From Marine Group II euryarchaeote MED-G38 (GTDB lineage Archaea > Thermoplasmatota > Poseidoniia > Poseidoniales > Thalassarchaeaceae): a stretch of DNA of 64,000 bases. Made by a program: the position numbers and the translations under genes. Location of the stretch: positions 96,722-160,721 of the forward strand of contig NTJP01000001.1 in NCBI GenBank assembly GCA_002457145.1, read 5' to 3'. Positions 17,261 through 33,277 of this stretch are shown piece by piece. Each line of letters begins with the position of its first letter. Positions within the stretch are counted from its first letter, which is position 1. Below the pieces are notes generated by a model, which was given only the letters and a program-made list of their open reading frames with translations, made no database searches and had not been told where the DNA came from.

Positions 17261-17752
17261 TTATACATCTCGCTTTGGTTTTATTATTAAAACTAATATT
17301 AATACCAAAATAACATTATAGAACAAAAATCCTGGAATCGCTTCATTTTTCATTTCTTCTTCTTCTTCTTCTTCCGAATCGACAATAATAGGTTTCACAA
17401 TGATGGTACCTATCATCCCCATTTGTTCATGTGGTTCACATACGTACGTATACGTCCCATTAGTTCCAATTTCAAATTTAAATGTATAATCCACATCTGT
17501 TTCAGGATCTCCTGAATCAAAAAAACCATTTTCTTCAACAGCGTTATGCCCTAAAAATTCTCCACTCCAGAAAAAACGAACCGATTCTCCTTCATTAAGC
17601 GTTATTTCTGAGGGAGAAAATCTAAAGTTCGTACTGTCCACAGTAACTACCTTTTCTGATTGTATAATTGAGTTTTCAGTTCCCAAAAAAGATGCTTCCA
17701 CAGTCCATAGAGGCACTAAAGAAATTAGTACAACAATTATCACTTGACGCAT
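17261..17752 (-). CDS. Membrane-anchored cupredoxin (plastocyanin/amicyanin-like)
   Basis: A secreted copper protein of about 163 residues: signal peptide, one blue-copper domain, a Glu-rich linker and a C-terminal membrane helix. The four ligands are His69 (LGHNA), Cys105, His108 and Met113 (CEPHEQMGM), the classic C-x2-H-x4-M spacing. It would carry electrons on the outer face of the membrane. I chose the ATG at 17752 because GGTGA lies eight bases before it and the signal peptide starts there; an in-frame start at 17791 is the alternative. It follows the MAPEG gene by 47 bases. Confidence 0.92.
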   Translation of the reverse strand: MRQVIIVVLISLVPLWTVEASFLGTENSIIQSEKVVTVDSTNFRFSPSEITLNEGESVRFFWSGEFLGHNAVEENGFFDSGDPETDVDYTFKFEIGTNGTYTYVCEPHEQMGMIGTIIVKPIIVDSEEEEEEEMKNEAIPGFLFYNVILVLILVLIIKPKRDV

Positions 17753-17799
17753 TTTCACATTCACCCGTAATAGTCTTTGGCTATCAATCAATGTTTATG

Positions 17800-20777: not shown

Positions 20778-22304
20778 ATGAGAATACTTATGGAAGATGA
20801 TAAATGGTGGAATTCAGCCGATGAAGAAGAAAAATCTCCAAAAGAAGAAATTAATGATTTGTTGGATGAGGCCGAGAAAAAAAGACTACAAAGAGAGGAA
20901 GAAATTGCAGAAGCGGAACATAAATTAAAAATGTCACAGCTTCAAAACCTTACATCTGATGCCGTAAATGGACCGGGCTTAGGAATTCCTGAAGTTGGAC
21001 CTGATGGTAATTTAATTAACTCAGAATCATCAAACATTCCAAAAATAAAAAATCCAATGGGAAATAACAATTTGAATAATTTAAAATCAGGAGAAGACGA
21101 AGGAATTGTAAAACAAACTAGTTTTTCACTACCTAATTGGTTATCTCCAGGTGAATTAATTTTTGTTACTATCGCGCTAATATTGACAATCGGATCATCA
21201 ATATTGATGACATATCAGTTCACTAATCAAGTTGATTGGGAGTTAACTGATGCTAAATTGATTGGTTCAGATGACATTCAGTGGATGGAAATAAATGCTA
21301 CTATAGAAAATGAAACAGGGTGGTTCGAAGATGTATCACAAAGATCATACACGTATGAGGACTGTTACTATGATGATTATGGAGATGAATATTGTGATAC
21401 ATATACCGAATGGTATGATTATTTCGTATGTTATGCTGATCTAAATTTATCATATTCTTTAGATGGAATTTCTTATATTAATTGGCAATATACTCCAGAA
21501 ATAACGGGGGAGTGGCCTTGTTTGGAAGACATAGAATTTTATTTCCAAATAGGGGATAATGTGTCTATTGAAGTAAACTTAAATGATCATTCCGACTATC
21601 AGGTTTTTGCTATTTCTCATGGATCTCCTTCAGGAACAGTTTGGAATGAAATATTACTATTTCCTGCAGATTCTTATGATATTTATCTATATTATTCATG
21701 TTATGCTGATTTATTTTATTCTTATACATATTCTTCTGGTTCTGCAGTGGAAACAAGTTATACTGGCTCATTCTCTTCCTCATCCATTTCGTCCAATACT
21801 CCTTGTATTAGTGATATAGAAGGCCAATACCCAATAGAATCCATAGTTCAGGTATATGTTAATCCAGAAAATCCTTCCGAATCAGCTGAAATACATCCTG
21901 ATAAGTTTACTGTTGATGAATTATTTTGTTGCATGTTATCATTGATAATATTTTTATTGATATCATTTATTTATGTCCGTTTCTCAAATTATGACCAACA
22001 AGTAGGTTTCCAAGGAGGAGATCAAGGATATGGCGGCTATGGAGGAATGCCTCCTTTCACTGGACCTTGGTATTATCGCCCATTTTACAGGCCATATGGT
22101 TATTTTAGGCGACGACGTCATTTTAATAGATCTTCATCAGGAAGAAGAGGAAGGAGGGCGATGAGTCGTTCAAGTGGTGGAGGAAGGCCTAGAGGGAGTA
22201 GAAGATCCGGTGGCGGCAGATCCGGCGGTAGCGGTAGAAGATCTGGTGGTGGCGGTAGAAGATCCGGAGGCGGCGGTAGATCCGGAGGCGGCCGAAGAAG
22301 ATAA
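20778..22304 (+). CDS. Membrane protein with coiled-coil start and Arg/Gly/Ser tail
   Basis: A 508-residue protein: a charged coiled-coil start (about 5-55), a linker, a membrane helix (about 124-147), an extracellular domain very rich in Tyr, Asp and Ser with several Cys, a second helix (about 386-405), and a cytosolic tail rich in Gly, Tyr, then Arg. The last 65 residues are a simple RG/SGG repeat like RNA- or phospholipid-binding tails. A TATA-like ATAAAT is about 25 bases before the ATG. I know no family for the whole protein. The ATG at 20790 is an alternative. Confidence 0.8.
   Translation: MRILMEDDKWWNSADEEEKSPKEEINDLLDEAEKKRLQREEEIAEAEHKLKMSQLQNLTSDAVNGPGLGIPEVGPDGNLINSESSNIPKIKNPMGNNNLNNLKSGEDEGIVKQTSFSLPNWLSPGELIFVTIALILTIGSSILMTYQFTNQVDWELTDAKLIGSDDIQWMEINATIENETGWFEDVSQRSYTYEDCYYDDYGDEYCDTYTEWYDYFVCYADLNLSYSLDGISYINWQYTPEITGEWPCLEDIEFYFQIGDNVSIEVNLNDHSDYQVFAISHGSPSGTVWNEILLFPADSYDIYLYYSCYADLFYSYTYSSGSAVETSYTGSFSSSSISSNTPCISDIEGQYPIESIVQVYVNPENPSESAEIHPDKFTVDELFCCMLSLIIFLLISFIYVRFSNYDQQVGFQGGDQGYGGYGGMPPFTGPWYYRPFYRPYGYFRRRRHFNRSSSGRRGRRAMSRSSGGGRPRGSRRSGGGRSGGSGRRSGGGGRRSGGGGRSGGGRRR
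22140..22304 (+). repeat. GC-rich simple repeat encoding the RG-rich tail
   Basis: About 125-160 bases of repeated AGAAGATCCGGTGGCGGC-like units (A/G-rich GGTGGCGGTAGAAG and variants), visibly richer in G and C than the surroundings. It encodes tandem RRSGGG units. The unit is 9-18 bases, so slippage could change copy number. Confidence 0.75.
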
Positions 22305-22309
22305 TGAAT

Positions 22310-23638
22310 TTAGATTTCCTTTTTGCTGAAAGTTAGTCTGTAATTGTATGTTTGATTACTTGTAAAATACTCAGGTACTGAGGTAATAATGACATAAATC
22401 AAATCACCCAGATCTGCTACGATTGACGCTCTACCTTCAATACCTCCACTCATTATGAAGGGTACATGTTCAGTATTTCCTCTTCTCTCCCGGTAAGAAC
22501 TCCAATTTTTTTTAATTAACACTCTTCCTGAAAAGTATGACGGTGCTCCCTCACTTCCAAAAGCATCACCTTCCAATTTAAATTCATACTTTCCTTTCCC
22601 TCCGTAATCATTCTTTAATTCTAGAACATTATATGACCAGCCTCTAGGCATTAATTTCTCCGTTGGGTGGAAAATAATATCCTCATTTGAATCTCCTCTT
22701 TTTAAATTCCTTGAACTCCAACTAAAGACCAATTGATTTAACACAGATTTTTTACTATTCCACCTTTGTATATCTATAAATTTTTTTTGTACGTTGGAAA
22801 GATAACTAAAATCATCCGTGTTACAAGCAGCCCAGTATGTAAAAAATTCACGTAAATTATGACTTCCAATCATTCTAAACAGGTATTCTGCAGGATTTAC
22901 TTTATCCTTTATTTTAAATATATCAGTTATGATATTTTTTGGAACATTACATACCTCACAAAGAAAGAACAAATAACATTCCAAAGCATATTGACGTTGA
23001 TTAAGCTCTTTTTCATCTTGATCGCCAATTTTCTTATTATGTTCTGTATGCCATATGGCTAAATGAGGATTTGCTGTTATGAAATGAACTCTCTCATAAC
23101 TAGTGACGGATTCTTTTTGATTTGCACGATCGGCAGCATACCAACTAGCTGATGCTTCAATATACCAACTCAACTCGTGCCATTGCTTTGTCCTTTTTCT
23201 ATACCATTCATTCTGAAAGACATGAAAACCTTCATGTCTAACCAGATCGCCATCTGTGTCTTGCCATGGTAAAGTCATGTAAGGCAGACCCATTCTGTTA
23301 TCTTTAACCATGGCATACCACTTATCTGGGAATAAATCATCTTTTTTTGTAGATCCTGAGTAATACAAATCAGAGTCATGAATGTAGACATTAAGATAAA
23401 AACCCAATCTGACATTTTTGGGGTCACTCATTCCTAAATTTTTAATACAATCCTCTCTAACTTTGTATAAAGTTTTCAAGATAAAATTTGCACGACTTTC
23501 CCATTCAAACCTTTTATCCCACCAAACTGCAAAAATGCCTAACGTCCTAACTTCCATAAGTTCAATATCTGGAATCTTATCTCCATCTCCATCTCCAAAC
23601 AGAGGTTTAATTCTTAACCCCGGAGGTTCTGAATCCAT
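22310..23638 (-). CDS. HExxH gluzincin-like metalloprotein, unknown function
   Basis: A 442-residue protein carrying HEGFH (135-139) and, 22 residues later, Glu161 in YIEASASWYA. The HExxH plus ExxAxW arrangement marks a zinc metalloprotease fold of the gluzincin type. An N-terminal GDGDGDKIPDIE stretch resembles calcium-binding repeats. The C-terminal part looks like a beta-sandwich domain (about 330-440). No signal peptide is seen, so it may work in the cytosol unless the start is wrong. It is convergent with the RG-tailed gene (five-base gap). Confidence 0.78.
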   Translation of the reverse strand: MDSEPPGLRIKPLFGDGDGDKIPDIELMEVRTLGIFAVWWDKRFEWESRANFILKTLYKVREDCIKNLGMSDPKNVRLGFYLNVYIHDSDLYYSGSTKKDDLFPDKWYAMVKDNRMGLPYMTLPWQDTDGDLVRHEGFHVFQNEWYRKRTKQWHELSWYIEASASWYAADRANQKESVTSYERVHFITANPHLAIWHTEHNKKIGDQDEKELNQRQYALECYLFFLCEVCNVPKNIITDIFKIKDKVNPAEYLFRMIGSHNLREFFTYWAACNTDDFSYLSNVQKKFIDIQRWNSKKSVLNQLVFSWSSRNLKRGDSNEDIIFHPTEKLMPRGWSYNVLELKNDYGGKGKYEFKLEGDAFGSEGAPSYFSGRVLIKKNWSSYRERRGNTEHVPFIMSGGIEGRASIVADLGDLIYVIITSVPEYFTSNQTYNYRLTFSKKEI

Positions 23639-23711
23639 ATTAATGCCAAATTATACGATGTAATAAAATAGATGGGATGCAAAATAAATTATTTTTCTAA
23701 CTTTTCCTATT

Positions 23712-25889
23712 TCAAATATTAATTACAGGACCAGGATTATCCCAATAAAAGTACATCTGTCTTCCATCTGTTGGATAAGGTTCAATATTTGTAGCAGTAA
23801 AATATAATTTATTTCCAAAACTTGTTAACCACCAAGGATAACTAGAATTATTTCCCGGGTTCAAATCTAATAAAATATTAGTTCCTTGCATTGTGCCATC
23901 CGATTGCCATATTTCATATCCATATTCTGGGGAATTAGCAGTAAAATATATTTTTTCATCATGTAGAATCATTTGTTCCCCAAACAACATTTCGTTAAGA
24001 TCCCAATCGAAAGTTGAATTTGTGCCAACGTATATATCCATTATCATAATAGTGCCTTCTTCAGTACCATCTGATTTCCATAATTCACGTCCGTATTGTT
24101 CATTGTATGCAGTAAAATATAATATGTCTCCAGAGAGAACAAAACTTCTTGGTTCACTTGATCCATTTGTATTGATATCTTTTACCATTTGAGTGCCGGT
24201 GGCAGTACTGTCCGAATACCATAATTCAGTACCATTTTGCCCATTATCTGCTGTAAAAAATATATTTTCTCCATGTGAGATTAAATTTTGAGGATTACTA
24301 CTATTATTTTCACCCGGCCAAATATCCATGACAATATTGGTATTAACAGCACTTCCTCTGCTGAAATATAGTTCTCTACCTGTGTCAGAATCTACTTCTG
24401 CGCTGAAATATATCTTATTATCTCCGACCGGGGTGAGTTGTTCTGGCTCACTACCCTCGACTCCAGTTCTAATATCTCCTATCAAGAATAATCTATTATT
24501 TCCAAATCCATTAAGATCGTATTTGTACAGTTCTCTACCATTGTCATTACTTTCGGCGGAAAAATAGATCATATTGTCTACATGCGTAAAATCTCTTGGT
24601 TTCGATCCTAAGAAATCGAAACAACAGTAAGGACCAGATTCTGTTATTTCAGGTACTATATTTCCCATTCTGACTGTTGTAACACCATCGGTGAGGTATG
24701 GTTCTTCCCCCGTGACATCTCCTGAATGTGCCCAAAAACCAGAATAAACTAACCTATCCGGATGATTCCCTGAAGAAGGGATGACATGTAAATCTCTAGG
24801 TCCAACAAAGTAGAAATCCCACCACCCATTAGACGAGAAATATTCATGAGTCCACTGATCCTGAATTAAATAAGTCCCTTCTTCCGTACCGTCACTAACG
24901 AAAACTTCTGCCATTCCAGGGGCATCATAGCCTGAGAAGAAGAATTTTGAGTTCCCCGCAACTAACTCAGGCCAGTAATTATCTCTATTTATGCCACTAA
25001 AATCTTGATAAGTTAAACTACCATAGTTATTACATGTTTCTTCTCCTGTATTTTCATTTACAGTACATTCTTCTGGCCTAACATCTTTGACCATGTAAGT
25101 CCCAGAAACAGTCCCATCTGTTATCCATGGTTCCCAACTATGTATGCCATCATTCCCAGCAAAAACCAACTTATCACCCATTTTAGCGATGCCTGACGGT
25201 CCCCAATAATTTTTTGATAGATTCAAAGTCCTTCCATAGTTGCCCGGGCATTCGCCTAGTCGAAATTGGATTTCATCATTCCATAATTCACCGTCTCCTT
25301 CAATCCCAGATCCTGTTCCATCATCAAATCCGCCAACAAACTCTATCCCTGGATTGTCCATCGGACAATTGTCAACCATTTGACGTGTATCAAATGTTAA
25401 ACCATCAATTGTACTTTGAAGGGCATTAATAGTAGCCAATAATTGCTCTGATTCGCTTTGCTTAGTTATTATTTGATTGTTAAGAGTCGAAATCTCGGAG
25501 TTTGCATCTTCCATTTCTACAGTCAAATTGACAATCTGGCTTTCTAGTTGTGCTAATAACCCCTCATCTTGAGTTCGATTTAGTTCATTCATTGTTTCAT
25601 TTAAGATGTTAGCAAGATTATCCCTATGCGATTCCAAAGAAGTCAATGTCAAAGTCAAATTATTAGCATCTTGATTAGAACTATTTAGATCTATTAATGC
25701 AGCATCCAGAGTCTGTTGAATAATCGCATAATTACTAGTCAATTCTTCATTTTCAGCAGTTAGATTATTTATTTCCAACTCTAGTGAAACTATCTTTTCC
25801 CTATCTCCTGCACTACTGCCGCCTTCAATACATCCTGCAAAAATAGATATCGAAAATATTAGCACCAAGGTAACTGCATAAAATTTCAT
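23712..25889 (-). CDS. Lipoprotein with coiled coil and ELWxSDGT repeats
   Basis: A 725-residue surface lipoprotein. The N-terminal hydrophobic segment ends with the lipobox FAGC (Cys20). A leucine/asparagine-rich coiled coil covers about residues 28-165. The remainder carries many copies of a motif like ELWKSDGTEEGT, a repeat known from other marine microbes as a likely beta-propeller. Acidic, glycine- and aromatic-rich loops suggest an extracellular binding role. It is 73 bases upstream of the HExxH gene on the same strand, but a link is unproven. Confidence 0.85.
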   Translation of the reverse strand: MKFYAVTLVLIFSISIFAGCIEGGSSAGDREKIVSLELEINNLTAENEELTSNYAIIQQTLDAALIDLNSSNQDANNLTLTLTSLESHRDNLANILNETMNELNRTQDEGLLAQLESQIVNLTVEMEDANSEISTLNNQIITKQSESEQLLATINALQSTIDGLTFDTRQMVDNCPMDNPGIEFVGGFDDGTGSGIEGDGELWNDEIQFRLGECPGNYGRTLNLSKNYWGPSGIAKMGDKLVFAGNDGIHSWEPWITDGTVSGTYMVKDVRPEECTVNENTGEETCNNYGSLTYQDFSGINRDNYWPELVAGNSKFFFSGYDAPGMAEVFVSDGTEEGTYLIQDQWTHEYFSSNGWWDFYFVGPRDLHVIPSSGNHPDRLVYSGFWAHSGDVTGEEPYLTDGVTTVRMGNIVPEITESGPYCCFDFLGSKPRDFTHVDNMIYFSAESNDNGRELYKYDLNGFGNNRLFLIGDIRTGVEGSEPEQLTPVGDNKIYFSAEVDSDTGRELYFSRGSAVNTNIVMDIWPGENNSSNPQNLISHGENIFFTADNGQNGTELWYSDSTATGTQMVKDINTNGSSEPRSFVLSGDILYFTAYNEQYGRELWKSDGTEEGTIMIMDIYVGTNSTFDWDLNEMLFGEQMILHDEKIYFTANSPEYGYEIWQSDGTMQGTNILLDLNPGNNSSYPWWLTSFGNKLYFTATNIEPYPTDGRQMYFYWDNPGPVINI

Positions 25890-25929
25890 AAACCTGCCAA
25901 TCTTTGAAGGCTAATAAGTAATTCTACAT

Positions 25930-26199
25930 TCATAATTTGTATTCTATCAAATTATCAGAACCCCCGACAAATACTATTTCATCCCCTCTAAGGTCAAATA
26001 GTACTGGAACAGTCCTATGGCCAGTTTCCATTACCAATTCTCTTCTTAATCCATCATGGTGGTCCAAATTTATTTCTGTATAACTCAGTCCTTTATTTTT
26101 CAAGTATCTTTTCGCTATTGAACAATAAACACAGATAGTTTGTGAGAACATCAAAAAGTCAGTTTTACTTTTTTTAAAATGCTCATTAAGCTGCGACAT
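25930..26199 (-). CDS. Glutaredoxin-like protein
   Basis: A thioredoxin-fold protein of 89 residues from the ATG at 26199. The active-site motif is CVYC (Cys23 and Cys26), followed by TVPVLFD with the expected cis-Pro and a GGSDNLIEYKL end. The ATG at 26199 has GGAGGGG eight bases upstream; an in-frame ATG at 26214 is the alternative. The gene overlaps the 3' end of the protease-transporter fusion gene by 14 bases and is probably translated with it. Confidence 0.88.
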   Translation of the reverse strand: MSQLNEHFKKSKTDFLMFSQTICVYCSIAKRYLKNKGLSYTEINLDHHDGLRRELVMETGHRTVPVLFDLRGDEIVFVGGSDNLIEYKL

Positions 26200-29100
26200 T
26201 TTCTGCCCCTCCAACTAATATGGCATCTTTCGGGTCTTCATTTTCTAACCAAAGATTTTCTCCTAAATCTCCTCCTGAATCATCATCTCCAAATCTACCT
26301 TCAAGAACCCTATCTGTTTCATCTGGATCTATGAATAATAAGAAAATTACAGAAATTAAGGTTAGAGCAGCACCAATATATAACATTGTTAAGTAATCAA
26401 AAGTAGCAATCATTCTCCCGGCAAACAGATATGCTAGCACAGCAGAAAGATTGAACATTGACATGTATGCAGTAAATTGCGTCCCTCCTGCTTTACTATA
26501 TGTAAGTCTCATAGATACTGATATAACACATATCCAAGCAATTCCGTATATTAGTGCCTTTATGCACAAATAAATAGTCATGATAGTGGTATCTTCCCAA
26601 TATGCATTAAGTAATGCTAGTCCTGCATTCGCTAGAGCAAGAAGGGTAAATCCAATCATTGCTATTTCTCTGACTCCATATCTATCTCCCAAAAATCCTC
26701 CAAATATTTGCCCCAACATCGTGAACAAAACTACTATTCCTCCAAGTATTGCATTGTATTTTTGTTGTGACCATCCTGCTTCATTAATGAAAATATCAAC
26801 GATTATCGGGTCTACGAATAATGCCAAGTCGGAAAGTAAACACAAAAATATTAGTAAGAATGATGAGCGAGTAGAAAATCCTTGTACAATATAATATGCT
26901 GTATTGGCAACATTTACCTTTGCATTGGACGGGGAAAATGCCAACGGACTCATAATATCAGGTAATTTAACTCCGAAACCTTCTACAACTATCATTAAGA
27001 TAGATGCCATAATCAAATATATTCCAAGAGTACTAATAATGGATAATTTTACAAAAATTTCTTTCACTGTGCCTTCAATAAGTGGCTCACTAATTAGGTA
27101 AATAATATCTATTCCACTACCAAAAATCCAGGTCACTAATCCAATCCATAATAATGCAGCAGAAATACTAATTTTATTTTCGTATATATTACTTGCAGTC
27201 CAACGAGCACTTCTGAATTTAGAATCTTCATTTTCTTCCCATGCTAAATTTGAATCTTCTTTGGAATCGGTCAATACTTCCTCGGCACTATCATTTTCGA
27301 CTCTTGAGTTATCCCATGGAAATAATTTATTTTCAGGTTTCTCACGTAAAAATAGTGGTAATAGCATAATCAAAATTAGTAATGGAATTTGTATCATTAT
27401 TACAAATTTAATACCAAACATTGGAACTAGCATGCCTAAAACCGCCCCTCCAAGTATTATCCCTCCTCTCTTTGTTGCAAACATCATTCCATTAGCCTTG
27501 GCTACTTCATCGGGCTGTAATACATCAACAGCCAAAGCATCTACACTTACATCCTGCAATGAGGAGAATAGATTATGAATGAATAACAAAATCGTGACTA
27601 ATGCTATTTTATCTATAATATTAGGTACGAAGAGAATAGTTGCAAGAGAAATCACCATCCCTGATTGAGCAAATAAGATCCATGGTCTCCTTCTACCATA
27701 TTCTGGAATTACTAGTAAATCAATCACTGGACCCCATACGAATTTGAAAGTCCATGGAAGTGCGATTGTAGCAAAGAGAATCGCTATTTCTTCGGGAGGA
27801 GTTCCGTTATCAGATAAGTATGCTACAAATGCAACATAAGTAAATCCGGCTGGTAGTCCTTGCGCTAAATATAGGACACATAAAGATACCAATCTTCTAA
27901 ATTGATTTTCTATTAATGATGCACCATTATTCCACTCCTTAACTAAGTTCCTGATTACTTGTGGAAATCTTCTTGGATCATATTTGTTGATATCAAAACT
28001 TTCTTTTTGAGATATTTCGCTCTTTTTCTCTAGTTTATCTATCCATCTTTCATTTATTGCAGCATAGGACAAAATTGCTAATGCAATGAAGAATGGAATG
28101 AAGAATATATGCGGCCCTATTGATATTAAATCACCATCATCGCCCATATTTGAAGCAGCTTGATCGACAAGCAAAACACGTTTTGCTTCAACAGGAGAAA
28201 TACTATCTTCTGAAACTATTAACCTAGCATATATAGTGGAATTTCCCGATTCTTCATGAGGAAGAAGTTTCACTCGCCATTCTGACCAATCTCCATTTCC
28301 TCCTACGTCTGCAGCTCCATTCCATTCGCCACTTCCTACTCTTACCTGTACTTCTCCTCCTTGACCTGAAATTGCTCCAGATGATGTTCCAGAAATATAA
28401 CTCTCATTGTGTATGGTTTGTAGAGTTTGTATATTCATAGAAATATTAAGTGAGCGGTCTATATTTCCTGCAGATTCCACAAATGCTACAGGATCGGCCT
28501 GGCCATATCCAAATTCGTTATCAGGTCTAGTTTCTAATAAGCTACAATCATTAAAGCCCGGATCATCCAGTAATACTATTTCTCTTTCTATCGAATCTAC
28601 TCTAATAATATCTTTAAATTCTTCAGGAGTTAAATCAGGGTTAGCCTGTATCATCAATGCCGCTATTCCCGCCATCAAAGGAGTTGCCATACTCGTTCCT
28701 GATTTACTAGTATAACCATCACTAGTTGCCGCATCAGGTGCCATTATACTGGACCCTATTACTGCCACATCAGGTTTTACTCTCAAATCAGAGGTATATC
28801 CTCTACTACTATATATTGCCAATCCCAAGTTCTTATCCAAACTACCAACAGTTACTGGAAGTTCTGCATCTCCAGGACTGTCAATGGTGTTACAACCCGC
28901 AAAAGTTGCCCCGCCGAATTCATTTCCAGCAGATAAAGTAGTTATAATTCCCGCTTCAACTACATAGTCCATTTGTCTACTCCATGATGAACTTCCATCG
29001 TTATCAATATGATTTTCTATTTGCTGTTCTCCAAGGGACGAGGTAAGTATATCTATACTATGCTTTTCCTTATTTTCCATTGCCCATTGTGCGCCTTGGA

Positions 29101-30013
29101 TTATATCTTCTATGTCTCCATCACAACATGCAAGTATTGTGACAAGAAATGCGCCAGGAGCCGCCCCAACATATCTTAATCCAGTTGCTGTATCACTTTG
29201 TCCGCCTCCAGTTCCTGCAGCAATTCCGGCAACATGGCTACCATGTGTGCCCGAATCGTAAGATGCAGAAGGGTCTTGTTCTTCATCTGTAAACACCGCA
29301 TCATAAAAAGCGACTATTTTCGGATCACAATCAGATATTGGTTGAGGATTAGGATCTAAAGGATTAGGGGGCTCAGTTACACAAGTTAATGGATCGTCAT
29401 CCATGTCATTCAATCCTTCGTGATCTCCTCTGACTCCTGTGTCCAAGATTGCAATAGTTGAACCTGTACCGTCTAATCCTAAATCATTCCAAACATTATT
29501 TACGCCCATATTCGGAACTGCTTCATGCATATTAGGTTCTGCTAAACCTAAATCTTCAATCATAACTACTCCTTGTAATGTTAAAATCCCTGAATGACTA
29601 GTAATTTCTTCTATTGGAATTGTAACTATCAAATTATCAAGATATTTTGGCCTAAATGTGACTTCTCCGCCTAACTCTTCAATTGCGATTACATCAGCAT
29701 CAGTTGGGTGATGATCAAAGTTAACAAATATTCTAGAACTTCCTTCGGGGGCTCTTTTCCACCAATCATTTTGAATTTCAGAGGGTTGTTGTAGTAACCA
29801 TTCTATTCTGTCGTCTATGCTGTTTGAATTCTTATCTCTGCTCCAATCCAACCACCATTCATTATGGATTCCAGATTCTGCCCTCTCAGTCCATATTCCT
29901 TTGGCATCAAAACCTCCTCTGGAATTATCAGTTGGCAATATGGCAGAAGTCGCCAATGGTAAAATAAAAATCAAGATAAGGAAACTAGCCAATAGTGTCC
30001 TCCGCCCAACCAT
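26186..30013 (-). CDS. Subtilisin-like protease fused to an AmpG-like MFS transporter
   Basis: A single 1275-residue frame. Residues 1-25 are a signal peptide. The S8 protease spans about 170-520 with Asp191 (ILDTGVRGDH), His257 (SGTHGSHVAG), Asn364 (SAGNE) and Ser441 (SGTSMATP). A beta domain (about 520-620) leads to a membrane helix (635-652) and a cytosolic linker. From about 705 to 1240 is an MFS transporter whose LYLAQGLPAGFTYVAFVAYL and FVWGPVIDLLVIPEYGRRRP segments resemble the AmpG/PAT group. No Met lies between 623 and the first transporter helix, so a separate start is unlikely. Topology fits: protease outside, linker and transporter N-terminus inside. A peptide-digesting and importing unit is inferred. 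Confidence 0.9.
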   Translation of the reverse strand: MVGRRTLLASFLILIFILPLATSAILPTDNSRGGFDAKGIWTERAESGIHNEWWLDWSRDKNSNSIDDRIEWLLQQPSEIQNDWWKRAPEGSSRIFVNFDHHPTDADVIAIEELGGEVTFRPKYLDNLIVTIPIEEITSHSGILTLQGVVMIEDLGLAEPNMHEAVPNMGVNNVWNDLGLDGTGSTIAILDTGVRGDHEGLNDMDDDPLTCVTEPPNPLDPNPQPISDCDPKIVAFYDAVFTDEEQDPSASYDSGTHGSHVAGIAAGTGGGQSDTATGLRYVGAAPGAFLVTILACCDGDIEDIIQGAQWAMENKEKHSIDILTSSLGEQQIENHIDNDGSSSWSRQMDYVVEAGIITTLSAGNEFGGATFAGCNTIDSPGDAELPVTVGSLDKNLGLAIYSSRGYTSDLRVKPDVAVIGSSIMAPDAATSDGYTSKSGTSMATPLMAGIAALMIQANPDLTPEEFKDIIRVDSIEREIVLLDDPGFNDCSLLETRPDNEFGYGQADPVAFVESAGNIDRSLNISMNIQTLQTIHNESYISGTSSGAISGQGGEVQVRVGSGEWNGAADVGGNGDWSEWRVKLLPHEESGNSTIYARLIVSEDSISPVEAKRVLLVDQAASNMGDDGDLISIGPHIFFIPFFIALAILSYAAINERWIDKLEKKSEISQKESFDINKYDPRRFPQVIRNLVKEWNNGASLIENQFRRLVSLCVLYLAQGLPAGFTYVAFVAYLSDNGTPPEEIAILFATIALPWTFKFVWGPVIDLLVIPEYGRRRPWILFAQSGMVISLATILFVPNIIDKIALVTILLFIHNLFSSLQDVSVDALAVDVLQPDEVAKANGMMFATKRGGIILGGAVLGMLVPMFGIKFVIMIQIPLLILIMLLPLFLREKPENKLFPWDNSRVENDSAEEVLTDSKEDSNLAWEENEDSKFRSARWTASNIYENKISISAALLWIGLVTWIFGSGIDIIYLISEPLIEGTVKEIFVKLSIISTLGIYLIMASILMIVVEGFGVKLPDIMSPLAFSPSNAKVNVANTAYYIVQGFSTRSSFLLIFLCLLSDLALFVDPIIVDIFINEAGWSQQKYNAILGGIVVLFTMLGQIFGGFLGDRYGVREIAMIGFTLLALANAGLALLNAYWEDTTIMTIYLCIKALIYGIAWICVISVSMRLTYSKAGGTQFTAYMSMFNLSAVLAYLFAGRMIATFDYLTMLYIGAALTLISVIFLLFIDPDETDRVLEGRFGDDDSGGDLGENLWLENEDPKDAILVGGAENVAA

Positions 30014-30104: not shown

Positions 30105-30998
30105 CTATTTTTCATCAATTACAATTCCCAACTCATCATAATCCCAATCGATATTAATCCATCCGTATGTCTCTAATTCTTTTATTACTATTTCTTTAGT
30201 GTTGGGTGCACATAGTAAACCTACAGATCCACCACCGCCAGCACCTAATGCTTTCCATGCTATAATTTTCTTACTGTCTATTAATGGTTTAAGCTTTGAA
30301 TGAAATGGAGAATGAATTCTCAAATCCAACATATCTACACCTTTGCATACTTCTCTTAGTGATTCTACAACGATTTCTCTCCTATCTTGTTGTAATCCAT
30401 TTGCCATCATTCTAGCAGCCTTTCTAATTCTGTGTAGTCCCTCTAGAACCGACTCATCACCATTACTGTATTTTTTCCAAACTTCTTCATGTAGTGCGCC
30501 GGAATTATGCTCAATTCCAGAATATAAGATTATGAAATGTTTATGCAACCAATTTTTTGAAGAACGCATTGGCTCAAATGGTAACGGCTCTACCTCATCA
30601 CCAATAAATAGTAAATGATTAAATCCGCCTTTCGCCGACGCCCATTGATCTTGCCTCCCTCCTTTATTTTCTAATAATTCTTCAAATTTGAATGCCAATT
30701 CTGCAATATCTTCTGGGGCCTTATTTTTTCCAGCTATTGTGGCTATTAATCCAACATTCATAGCCCCACTGGTGCCCAATCCCGACCCTGTGGGAACATC
30801 ACTTCTATATTCTACTTTTTTCTTCCCCTCATCATCTATTTCCATAGAGCATTTGATATATTTATCAATGGTAAAATTTACTACTTCTCCTCCGAATTCG
30901 GATGCATATTGTTGCACATCAGTCCAACCTCCTGCTAAATCTACTCTGACAGGAACTCTGACCTCTATGCGCTTGACCATGGGGGATGCTAGCGGCAT
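30105..30998 (-). CDS. GHMP-family sugar kinase (HddA/fucokinase-like)
   Basis: A 297-residue kinase. The N-terminal RVDLAGGWTDVQQY motif, the ATP loop PTGSGLGTSGA (about 69-79), the DQWASAKGGFNHLLF segment and the C-terminal LGAGGGGSVGLL motif match D-glycero-D-manno-heptose-7-phosphate kinase and L-fucokinase type enzymes. It would phosphorylate a sugar for surface glycan or nucleotide-sugar synthesis (inference). It lies divergent to the flavin operon, 57 bases apart. The ATG at 30980 is an alternative start. Confidence 0.85.
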   Translation of the reverse strand: MPLASPMVKRIEVRVPVRVDLAGGWTDVQQYASEFGGEVVNFTIDKYIKCSMEIDDEGKKKVEYRSDVPTGSGLGTSGAMNVGLIATIAGKNKAPEDIAELAFKFEELLENKGGRQDQWASAKGGFNHLLFIGDEVEPLPFEPMRSSKNWLHKHFIILYSGIEHNSGALHEEVWKKYSNGDESVLEGLHRIRKAARMMANGLQQDRREIVVESLREVCKGVDMLDLRIHSPFHSKLKPLIDSKKIIAWKALGAGGGGSVGLLCAPNTKEIVIKELETYGWINIDWDYDELGIVIDEK

Positions 30999-31055: not shown

Positions 31056-31766
31056 ATGGTGTCTGAGGTTGAAGCAGCGATTGAGGCGTTTTCGAGTGGT
31101 AAGCCAGTGATGATTTTTGACTCATCATTTAGGGAGCAAGAAACCGACTTACTATGGCCTGCATCAGCAGCTACCCCAAGTATAATGAGGAGATTGAGAA
31201 AAGATTGTGGTGGTTTACTCTTCTTGGCAATAGGAAATGAAGTAGGAGAATTATTCGGATTACCTTGGTTGCAAGATATACATTCTCATTCTAAATTGGT
31301 AGAAGAAAATCCAGTGCTATCTGAATTAATTACTGATGACTTGAAATATGACTCAAAATCTGCATTTACATTATCGCTAAATCACAGAGAAACATTCACG
31401 GGAATAACAGATAAAGATAGAGCATTAACTACGCGCAGATTTGGAGAGTTAACAGATGAATTATTTCATATTAAATCGGATAAAATACAAGCTCGTAAGG
31501 CATTAGGGAAAGAATTCAGAACTCCGGGGCACATTCCATTGTGTCGTGAATCTCCCGGGGGACTTAAAGCGCGTCAAGGTCATACAGAGTTGGCAGTTTC
31601 AATAGCACGACTGGCAGGCCTTCCTGCTTGTACTATTGGTGCAGAAATGCTACAGCCCGACGGCGATGGTGCTCTTACAGTTGAAGACGCTAGAAAATAC
31701 TCTATTGAGAATGGGATACCAATGTTAACCGGTGAAGATATTTTGAACGCATCCGGGATATATTAA
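31056..31766 (+). CDS. ribB: 3,4-dihydroxy-2-butanone 4-phosphate synthase
   Basis: A 236-residue enzyme that turns ribulose-5-phosphate into the four-carbon precursor of lumazine. The magnesium-binding acidic stretch is FREQETDLLWPA (the bacterial motif is REGEGDL), followed by a KDCGGLLFLAI segment, the TDKDRALTTRR region and, later, GHTELAVSIARLAGLPAC. The form is the stand-alone archaeal type. It is first of a block of riboflavin genes with trxB at the end. I see no FMN riboswitch in the 57-base leader region. Confidence 0.93.
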   Translation: MVSEVEAAIEAFSSGKPVMIFDSSFREQETDLLWPASAATPSIMRRLRKDCGGLLFLAIGNEVGELFGLPWLQDIHSHSKLVEENPVLSELITDDLKYDSKSAFTLSLNHRETFTGITDKDRALTTRRFGELTDELFHIKSDKIQARKALGKEFRTPGHIPLCRESPGGLKARQGHTELAVSIARLAGLPACTIGAEMLQPDGDGALTVEDARKYSIENGIPMLTGEDILNASGIY

Positions 31767-31784
31767 CAAATACGGAGTGTACTT

Positions 31785-31790
31785 GGAGGT
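31785..31790 (+). promoter_or_regulatory. Ribosome-binding site before ribL
   Basis: GGAGGT lies seven bases before the ATG at 31798. It is a near-perfect Shine-Dalgarno match and confirms that internal genes of this operon are translated by ribosome binding. Confidence 0.6.
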
Positions 31791-31797
31791 TTAATAT

Positions 31798-32259
31798 ATG
31801 TCTACCGTAGTCATGGCAGTGGGGGTTTTTGATCTCCTCCATGCCGGTCATTTACATTATTTGGAGCAAGCTAAATCATTGGGTGATAAATTAATTGTTG
31901 TAGTTGCCCATGATGAAACTGTTAGAAAGCGTAAACATGAGCCAATAACAAATCATAATCTACGTAGAAGAATGGTCAGTGGTCTAAAGCCTGTTGATGA
32001 ATCAATAATAGGCAACCCTCCTGAAATATCTATTTTTGAAATATTGGGGAGAGTAATGCCAAGTAAGATTGCACTAGGATATGATCAAAAACATTCAATC
32101 GATTCAATAAAGAAGGGCCTAATAGAGCATGGTTTTGAACACATCGAGGTCGTTAGAGTGGAAGGACTGTCTGATGATTTAGATGGGACTAGGAAAATTA
32201 TTGCAAAGATATTAGATATCTGGCCTAGTAAAAAAGGTGGACCGTACGAGGAAGATTAG
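31798..32259 (+). CDS. ribL: Archaeal FAD synthetase (cytidylyltransferase family)
   Basis: A 153-residue nucleotidyltransferase joining FMN with AMP to form FAD. The signature FDLLHAGHLHYLEQAKSLGD and the later GYDQKHSI segment fit the RibL family of archaea, related to glycerol-3-phosphate cytidylyltransferase. Its place between ribB and ribE supports the flavin role over a lipid role. It ends directly against the next start (TAG then ATG). Confidence 0.9.
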   Translation: MSTVVMAVGVFDLLHAGHLHYLEQAKSLGDKLIVVVAHDETVRKRKHEPITNHNLRRRMVSGLKPVDESIIGNPPEISIFEILGRVMPSKIALGYDQKHSIDSIKKGLIEHGFEHIEVVRVEGLSDDLDGTRKIIAKILDIWPSKKGGPYEED

Positions 32260-32877
32260 ATGTTTACAGGAATTATACAAGGCACTGGAACTATCACATC
32301 CATTGATCGAAAAATATCATCTTCAACATTTTCTATAGAATTAGATAATTTAAGTAAAAATTTATCTCTAGGATCAAGTGTATCAATAGATGGGGTCTGC
32401 TTGACAGTGACAAATCAAGAAAACACATTAGTTTATTTTGATGTAATCCAAGAAACTCTGTCACGTACAACACTTGGAAATGCCAAAGAAGGAGGGATGG
32501 TAAATCTAGAACGCGCTCTCAAAGTAGGTGATGAATTAGGAGGACATCTCCTTTCTGGACATATAATGTGTACTTCATCAGTGATATCCATGAAAAATAA
32601 TGGAGAAGGAGTAGATGTTGAAATATCTTTAAATGAAAAATTGAAGCCATTTATTATGGAAAAAGGATATATTGCCATTGATGGTATCAGCTTAACCATA
32701 GGAGAAGTAAATTCTAACTCTTTCAACCTACATTTAATTCCAGAAACTCTTGATCGTACTACAATTAATTCAAAAACCGAGGGTAGTATGGTGAATATAG
32801 AAATAGACTCGATGACCCAAGCAATTGTATCGACGGTATCTTCAATGATGAAAGACCAATTAAAATTAAATGAGTGA
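32260..32877 (+). CDS. ribE: Riboflavin synthase, bacterial alpha-subunit type
   Basis: A 205-residue enzyme that dismutates two lumazines to riboflavin. The N-terminus MFTGIIQGTGTITSI, and two similar barrel halves each bearing SIDGVCLTV or AIDGISLTI and a GGHLLSGHI site, are typical of the bacterial and fungal enzyme. Most archaea use an unrelated RibC-type synthase, so this copy points to lateral gain. It begins directly after ribL and overlaps the start region of ribH. Confidence 0.95.
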   Translation: MFTGIIQGTGTITSIDRKISSSTFSIELDNLSKNLSLGSSVSIDGVCLTVTNQENTLVYFDVIQETLSRTTLGNAKEGGMVNLERALKVGDELGGHLLSGHIMCTSSVISMKNNGEGVDVEISLNEKLKPFIMEKGYIAIDGISLTIGEVNSNSFNLHLIPETLDRTTINSKTEGSMVNIEIDSMTQAIVSTVSSMMKDQLKLNE

Positions 32878-32881
32878 TATC

Positions 32882-33277
32882 ATGAAAATAGGTATAATAT
32901 GTACTTCATTCCATAAAGAAAAGATGGATATGATGTTACATCATGCATCTGAAGAATCAATTTCCAATGGTCTTGAATTGGCAGTAATAGAATGGGTCCC
33001 AGGAGTAATGGAAATTCCACTGACTGTAAATAGGATGTTAAAAGAGAACAATCTGAAGGGTATAGTAACTCTTGGAATTATAGAAGAGGGAGAGACACAA
33101 CATGGCGCAGTCATAGGCCAAGCCGTCATAAATTCAATAATTAATTTACAATTAAAATATAATACGCCCATAGGATTAGGAATAATAGGTCCTGGTGCTA
33201 AAAAAGAACATATCGTTCCAAGAATAAAGCCGCATTCAATAGCCGCTGTAAAAGCCGTAGTTAAAATGTTGAAATAA
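32882..33277 (+). CDS. ribH: 6,7-dimethyl-8-ribityllumazine synthase
   Basis: About 131 residues. Key segments are EWVPGVMEIPLTVNRML, the GxxxEGETQHGAVIG loop with the catalytic His, and LGIIGPGAKKEHI, which is closer to archaeal RibH than to bacterial ones. It makes lumazine from the RibB product and the pyrimidine. I prefer the ATG at 32882, which gives the usual MKIGII start and has GTGAT just upstream; an ATG at 32870 would overlap ribE. The pyrimidine-branch genes (GTP cyclohydrolase, deaminase/reductase) are not in the window. Confidence 0.9.
   Translation: MKIGIICTSFHKEKMDMMLHHASEESISNGLELAVIEWVPGVMEIPLTVNRMLKENNLKGIVTLGIIEEGETQHGAVIGQAVINSIINLQLKYNTPIGLGIIGPGAKKEHIVPRIKPHSIAAVKAVVKMLK

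Follow-up and report, generated by a model that had tools for sequence, protein, structure and literature searches.

An open reading frame on the minus strand of the window (the whole stretch of DNA analysed here, 64,000 nucleotides long) raises the question of whether an S8 protease and an MFS transporter are made as one polypeptide in these archaea, and what such a protein would do. Reading of the frame gave an ATG at 30013, a stop at 26186 and no internal stop in 1275 codons, which bears out the single open frame described in an earlier note on this DNA.

An S8 protease and a PAT-type carrier in one frame

The gene is composed of the following parts:
26186..30013, minus strand: whole S8-MFS fusion gene, 1275 aa (open reading frame, domain search and relatives)
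29942..30013, minus strand: predicted signal peptide, residues ~1-24 (hydropathy peak at 7-25 and basic N-terminus)
29504..29941, minus strand: propeptide-like region, residues ~25-170 (precedes the Pfam S8 match; predicted from S8 family architecture)
28499..29503, minus strand: S8 catalytic domain, residues ~171-505 (Pfam, conserved residues, closest solved chain 3afg)
29441-29443, minus strand: Asp191
29243-29245, minus strand: His257
28691-28693, minus strand: Ser441
28154..28498, minus strand: extension at the C-terminal end of the S8 head, residues ~506-620 (conserved whether the S8 is fused or free)
28049..28129, minus strand: transmembrane helix serving as anchor, residues ~629-655 (homologue of the beta-headed MFS anchor)
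27899..28048, minus strand: charged, presumably cytoplasmic linker, residues ~656-705 (length differs among relatives)
26309..27898, minus strand: PAT/AmpG-type MFS, residues ~706-1235 (NCBIfam, HMM, structure model, Foldseek)
26978..27166, minus strand: additional helix pair in the central loop of the MFS, residues ~950-1012 (structure model and sequences of relatives)

Pfam Peptidase_S8 matches residues 182-504 of the protein (3.4e-44). Asp191, His257 and the oxyanion residue Asn364 are conserved in all 77 fused and free relatives and Ser441 in all 76 relatives that reach that position, counts that include some duplicate records of the same genome. The complete catalytic triad read previously is thus unbroken in every relative spanning these residues, and the head, having the Asp-His-Ser triad and the oxyanion Asn in an S8 fold, is a member of the S8 family. 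The closest solved chain is the subtilisin-like serine protease 3afg; ordinary S8 proteases of this kind carry no transporter, whereas the S8 domain here is joined to an MFS. The helix that had been placed at residues 635-652, ahead of the transporter, is present, with its hydropathy peak shifted to 629-647. It is followed by the charged linker that had also been noticed, and Met623 is indeed the last Met until about residue 760.

The second half of the protein matches Pfam MFS_1 (residues 711-1010, 5e-30), and an Acatn match is also present. In NCBIfam it is nearest to AmpG (TIGR00901), with a score of 138.8 bits that lies below the curated cut-off of 350. A profile of the MFS half searched against solved structures retrieved AmpG (1.5e-29) and then SLC33A1 (6e-18). 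Modelled by itself (pLDDT 76), this half shows the 12 canonical helices and, in the central loop, two additional ones; its best Foldseek match is AmpG (5e-14), with SLC33A1 in complex with oxidised glutathione and MCT1/basigin also among the structure matches. A full-length AlphaFold model was discarded (pLDDT 45, S8 half not folded, shallow alignment of 16 rows). Because the profile matches, the Foldseek matches and the helix model agree on a fold nearest to AmpG and SLC33A1, the MFS half is a PAT-type carrier. The earlier description as a twelve-helix AmpG-type MFS therefore holds for the type, and its helix count has to be extended by two. The additional pair occurs in the family of the window and in the S8-MFS of another order, and is absent from the shorter MFS of family f2.

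The likeness to AmpG has limits. The stretches QD..DA and FKF.W.P..D...GRRR of AmpG align with the MFS half of the fusion, but the fusion falls short of the curated AmpG cut-off, carries a head and an anchor helix where AmpG has no N-terminal ectodomain, and differs by the two central helices. Moreover, AmpG is a muropeptide permease and the hosts of the fusion are archaea, which have no murein. SLC33A1 (acetyl-CoA transporter 1), of the same PAT family, is a eukaryotic organelle carrier without a protease head. Among the structure matches, the solved complexes of the PAT family hold GlcNAc-anhMurNAc and oxidised glutathione. From the order signal peptide, head, anchor, linker and MFS, the head would lie outside the cell and the N-terminus of the MFS inside, its normal side, which supports the topology that had been proposed from the order of helices.

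All sequences concerned are metagenome-assembled, which leaves room for two adjacent genes having been fused by assembly or gene calling. The earlier note had suggested searching other Poseidoniia for the same fusion, and had regarded a frameshift or stop in reads near the junction, or homologues that are always separate genes, as refuting it; the frame has no stop, and fused homologues exist. The S8-MFS was read as a single frame in 47 separate genomes of the family, and ORF length points to its presence in ~67 of the family's 148. Five genomes from another order of the class, taken to be Marine Group III, have it too, at 1166-1194 aa. Long contigs are included: a near-identical S8-MFS (L043, 97%) lies on a contig of 533 kb whose isolate name suggests PacBio. 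Over residues 621-706 the codon changes relative to L010 comprise 10 synonymous and 7 others, a bias across the junction that, judged from sequence, is unlike non-coding drift. Since the fusion is conserved across genera, a chance join is refuted, and we put the likelihood of an artefact at practically nil. In a search that covered open papers, no description of an S8-MFS fusion was found, and passages of three papers on these archaea (PMC6461757, PMC6864105, PMC9723583) do not report it. As far as could be found, a surface protease and an MFS transporter in one chain have not been described previously.

Exchange of heads on a constant anchor and carrier

The fusion falls in a class defined in this analysis, the headed PAT-MFS of Poseidoniia, in which an ectodomain, a single anchor, a linker and a PAT-type MFS are encoded in one frame. 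Among the MFS relatives the anchor helix, linker and MFS form the constant unit and the outer head varies. Five head types were found: S8, M28 peptidase, cupredoxin, a beta-type domain of ~200 aa and a domain behind a lipoprotein-like signal, the last two being unnamed domains. The S8 plus MFS gene first noticed is a true fusion, and its protease represents a single option in a set of at least five exchangeable heads. Proteins with different heads have, in several lineages, homologous anchor helices, so the head joint lies upstream of the anchor. The M28 and cupredoxin heads look active, because all zinc-ligand motifs are present in 10 of 12 M28 heads (the other two miss part of the simple pattern) and the cupredoxin heads show type-1 copper residues. 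In a profile search of the PDB, the beta-type head gave one weak match, to the S-layer protein MA0829 (E 0.006), and the lipoprotein-type head gave no match.

Further features of the window that bear on the history of the fusion gene are:
30105..30998, minus strand: GHMP sugar kinase (HddA-like), directly upstream of the fusion and conserved as a pair with headed MFS
21300..28200, no strand: recent recombination tract (identity to L041/L038 mostly 91-97%, outside it about 70-84%)
17261..17791, minus strand: free cupredoxin with a membrane anchor, sharing 69% identity with the cupredoxin head of the MFS in L132

Head types also exist as stand-alone proteins, namely the cupredoxin of the window, beta proteins and S8. 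The free cupredoxin has an acidic stretch and a C-terminal helix. Free beta-head proteins (L203-L207) end in what we read as a PGF-like C-terminal stretch, and in several genera their genes sit between ftsZ-like and histidyl-tRNA-synthetase-like genes. A sodium/solute symporter (L066:1445-3529, minus strand; L074:3-1262, plus strand), which adjoins a free S8 gene, carries a C-terminal domain of ~180 aa that is 33% identical to the lipoprotein-type head of f2. The second unnamed domain is therefore also fused to a Na+/solute symporter, which suggests that such domains travel with carriers.

If absence of a head is counted as a sixth state beside the five heads, at least 10 changes are needed on the tree of the MFS. 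In a careful tree, monophyly is rejected by AU tests both for the S8-headed MFS (p 2e-30) and for the beta-headed MFS within the window's family (p 3e-53), p values that are not strict as the groups were named after the first tree had been seen. In the S8 tree free S8 arises twice, each time nested within fused S8, so that release from the MFS is the derived state. Gene order provides the deciding evidence. Between the GHMP kinase and the neighbour genes numbered 17, 11 and 12, most genera carry an S8-MFS and others a beta-MFS in one and the same slot; in genus g3 an M28-headed MFS adjoins the same three neighbours, and in one genus of the sister family an M28-headed MFS stands beside neighbours 11 and 12 with a GHMP kinase homologue 2 kb away. 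The head has thus been exchanged at an orthologous locus.

In 50 loci with an S8 or beta head (some of these loci being duplicate records) the GHMP kinase lies directly upstream in the same orientation, and it stays when the head changes. The other order has not kept it, and within f2 it was seen in one genus only. Beside the M28-headed MFS of g3 (L131:864-2655) nucleotidyltransferase-like and GHMP-kinase-like genes stand back to back, the names being taken from our reading of the sequence. In the window, riboflavin genes (DHBP synthase, a lumazine-binding protein and neighbours; 31056-33277, plus strand) diverge from the kinase-fusion pair, and their order is conserved across the family.

The recombination tract of the window suggests how heads may be replaced. 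Between ~28.2 kb and ~21.3 kb DNA identity is mostly 91-97%, up from about 70-84%, and relative to L010/L041 the synonymous divergence falls from ~44% to ~14% of codons near residue 595-600. These two shifts place one end of a recent recombination tract at the head/anchor joint; a single such tract is no proof that the joint is a preferred breakpoint. Within the tract lies a gene (23712-25889, minus strand) for a lipoprotein-like coiled-coil protein of 725 aa with seven ELWxxDGT repeats. An inversion between S8 and MFS genes was considered as swap mechanism and dropped, the synteny showing the same slot and no clean inversion. In part of genera g4/g6 (L075, L089-L091, L093 and L094) the anchor of the S8-MFS resembles the helix of free S8 and the linker is far shorter; this subset is possibly an independent fusion. 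We tentatively propose, at slightly under even odds, that these are class-wide importers in which a constant anchor and MFS are combined with interchangeable heads through recombination at the head/anchor joint, and that such a cassette swap would alter the substrate digested and imported.

Possible functions of the fused protease and carrier

The explanation that we favour, with a probability of roughly 0.55, is a surface-tethered hydrolase that feeds its own peptide or glycopeptide importer and is fitted to the substrate by its head; surface location, direction of import, cargo and the coupling of cutting to transport are predictions of this model. After removal of the signal peptide the S8 subtilase would fold outside the cell. 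The propeptide would then be cut off at the N-terminus, which would not free the enzyme since it is tethered to the anchor helix via its C-terminus. The chain would span the membrane and continue through the short charged cytoplasmic linker into the AmpG/SLC33A1-like MFS, with the N-terminus of the latter inside. At the cell surface S8 may cut a protein or a glycoprotein; the MFS may then import the small product by ion drive, with little lost to diffusion. The exchangeable head would set which substrate is prepared or held, with anchor and MFS as the constant transport unit. That two unrelated, active-looking peptidase families (S8 and M28) are found on the same carrier argues that hydrolysis and cargo are linked. 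The setting is consistent with this: published work describes these archaea as proteolytic in lifestyle and as lacking genes for amino-acid biosynthesis (PMC6461757), and reports a highly transcribed subtilase (PMC9723583) and several extracellular S8 copies together with carriers without known cargo (PMC6864105).

A sugar kinase partner does not fit a plain peptide importer, and because it is conserved upstream, a glycan or glycopeptide has to be taken seriously as an alternative cargo. In a process comparable to the recycling of peptidoglycan, the head might trim glycoproteins of the cell's own or neighbouring surface, the AmpG-like MFS might import the released glycan or glycopeptide, and the GHMP kinase might phosphorylate the sugar for re-use. 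Such envelope recycling would suit an MFS whose nearest relative is AmpG, an HddA-like kinase retained despite the change of head, the nucleotidyltransferase-like and GHMP-kinase-like genes near the M28-headed MFS of g3, and a beta-head that occurs as a free surface-type protein with, by our reading, a PGF-like C-terminus and matches an S-layer protein. The S-layer match is weak, however, and the kinase is missing from the other order and confined to a single genus in f2; we regard recycling as unlikely, if worth keeping in view.

The head might instead be an ectodomain for binding, gating or quality control, or a docking handle, in which case S8 proteolysis would be unrelated to the cargo of the MFS and the fusion would secure only anchoring and co-production. 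Three of the five head types are not recognisable hydrolases, and as several heads without a recognised enzyme domain sit on the same anchor and MFS, the transporter family taken together cannot depend on proteolysis. The release of S8 as a separate gene in two lineages likewise means that tethering is dispensable there. Ancillary ectodomains have precedents in MCT-basigin and 4F2hc-type carriers, where a single-span ectodomain protein is paired with a multi-span carrier; these are two chains without an active protease, whereas the fusion is one chain. Against such a role stands the independent recruitment of S8 and M28 to the same type of carrier, with the link to cargo that it suggests, and we consider it improbable.

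Related systems and meaning for Marine Group II archaea

Proteolysis and transport have been paired elsewhere by other means. The mammalian peptide importers PepT1 and PepT2, MFS proteins of the POT family, resemble the fusion in that their extracellular domain binds trypsin, and it has been proposed that this domain gathers proteolysis at the site of transport (PMC4597091). Their protease is recruited and not fused, their Ig-like ectodomain lies within the MFS, and the MFS family is a different one. PCATs do contain a peptidase and an ABC transporter in one polypeptide (PMC6959990), but these are C39 peptidases on ABC exporters that cut a secretion signal before export, whereas the head of the fusion is an S8 protease that follows a signal peptide and its carrier is an MFS.

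In surface oceans, Marine Group II archaea are abundant users of protein, yet a published search for the carriers they use in uptake reached no conclusion on cargo (PMC6864105). Where annotation treats S8 as an extracellular enzyme in its own right, it may be miscounting it. A carrier physically linked to a surface hydrolase of its own would show how a free-living planktonic cell keeps digestion products from diffusing away, and would turn the vague trait of "protein degradation" into a testable protein, for which the exchange of heads offers a natural series of constructs on the effect of an ectodomain on carrier specificity.
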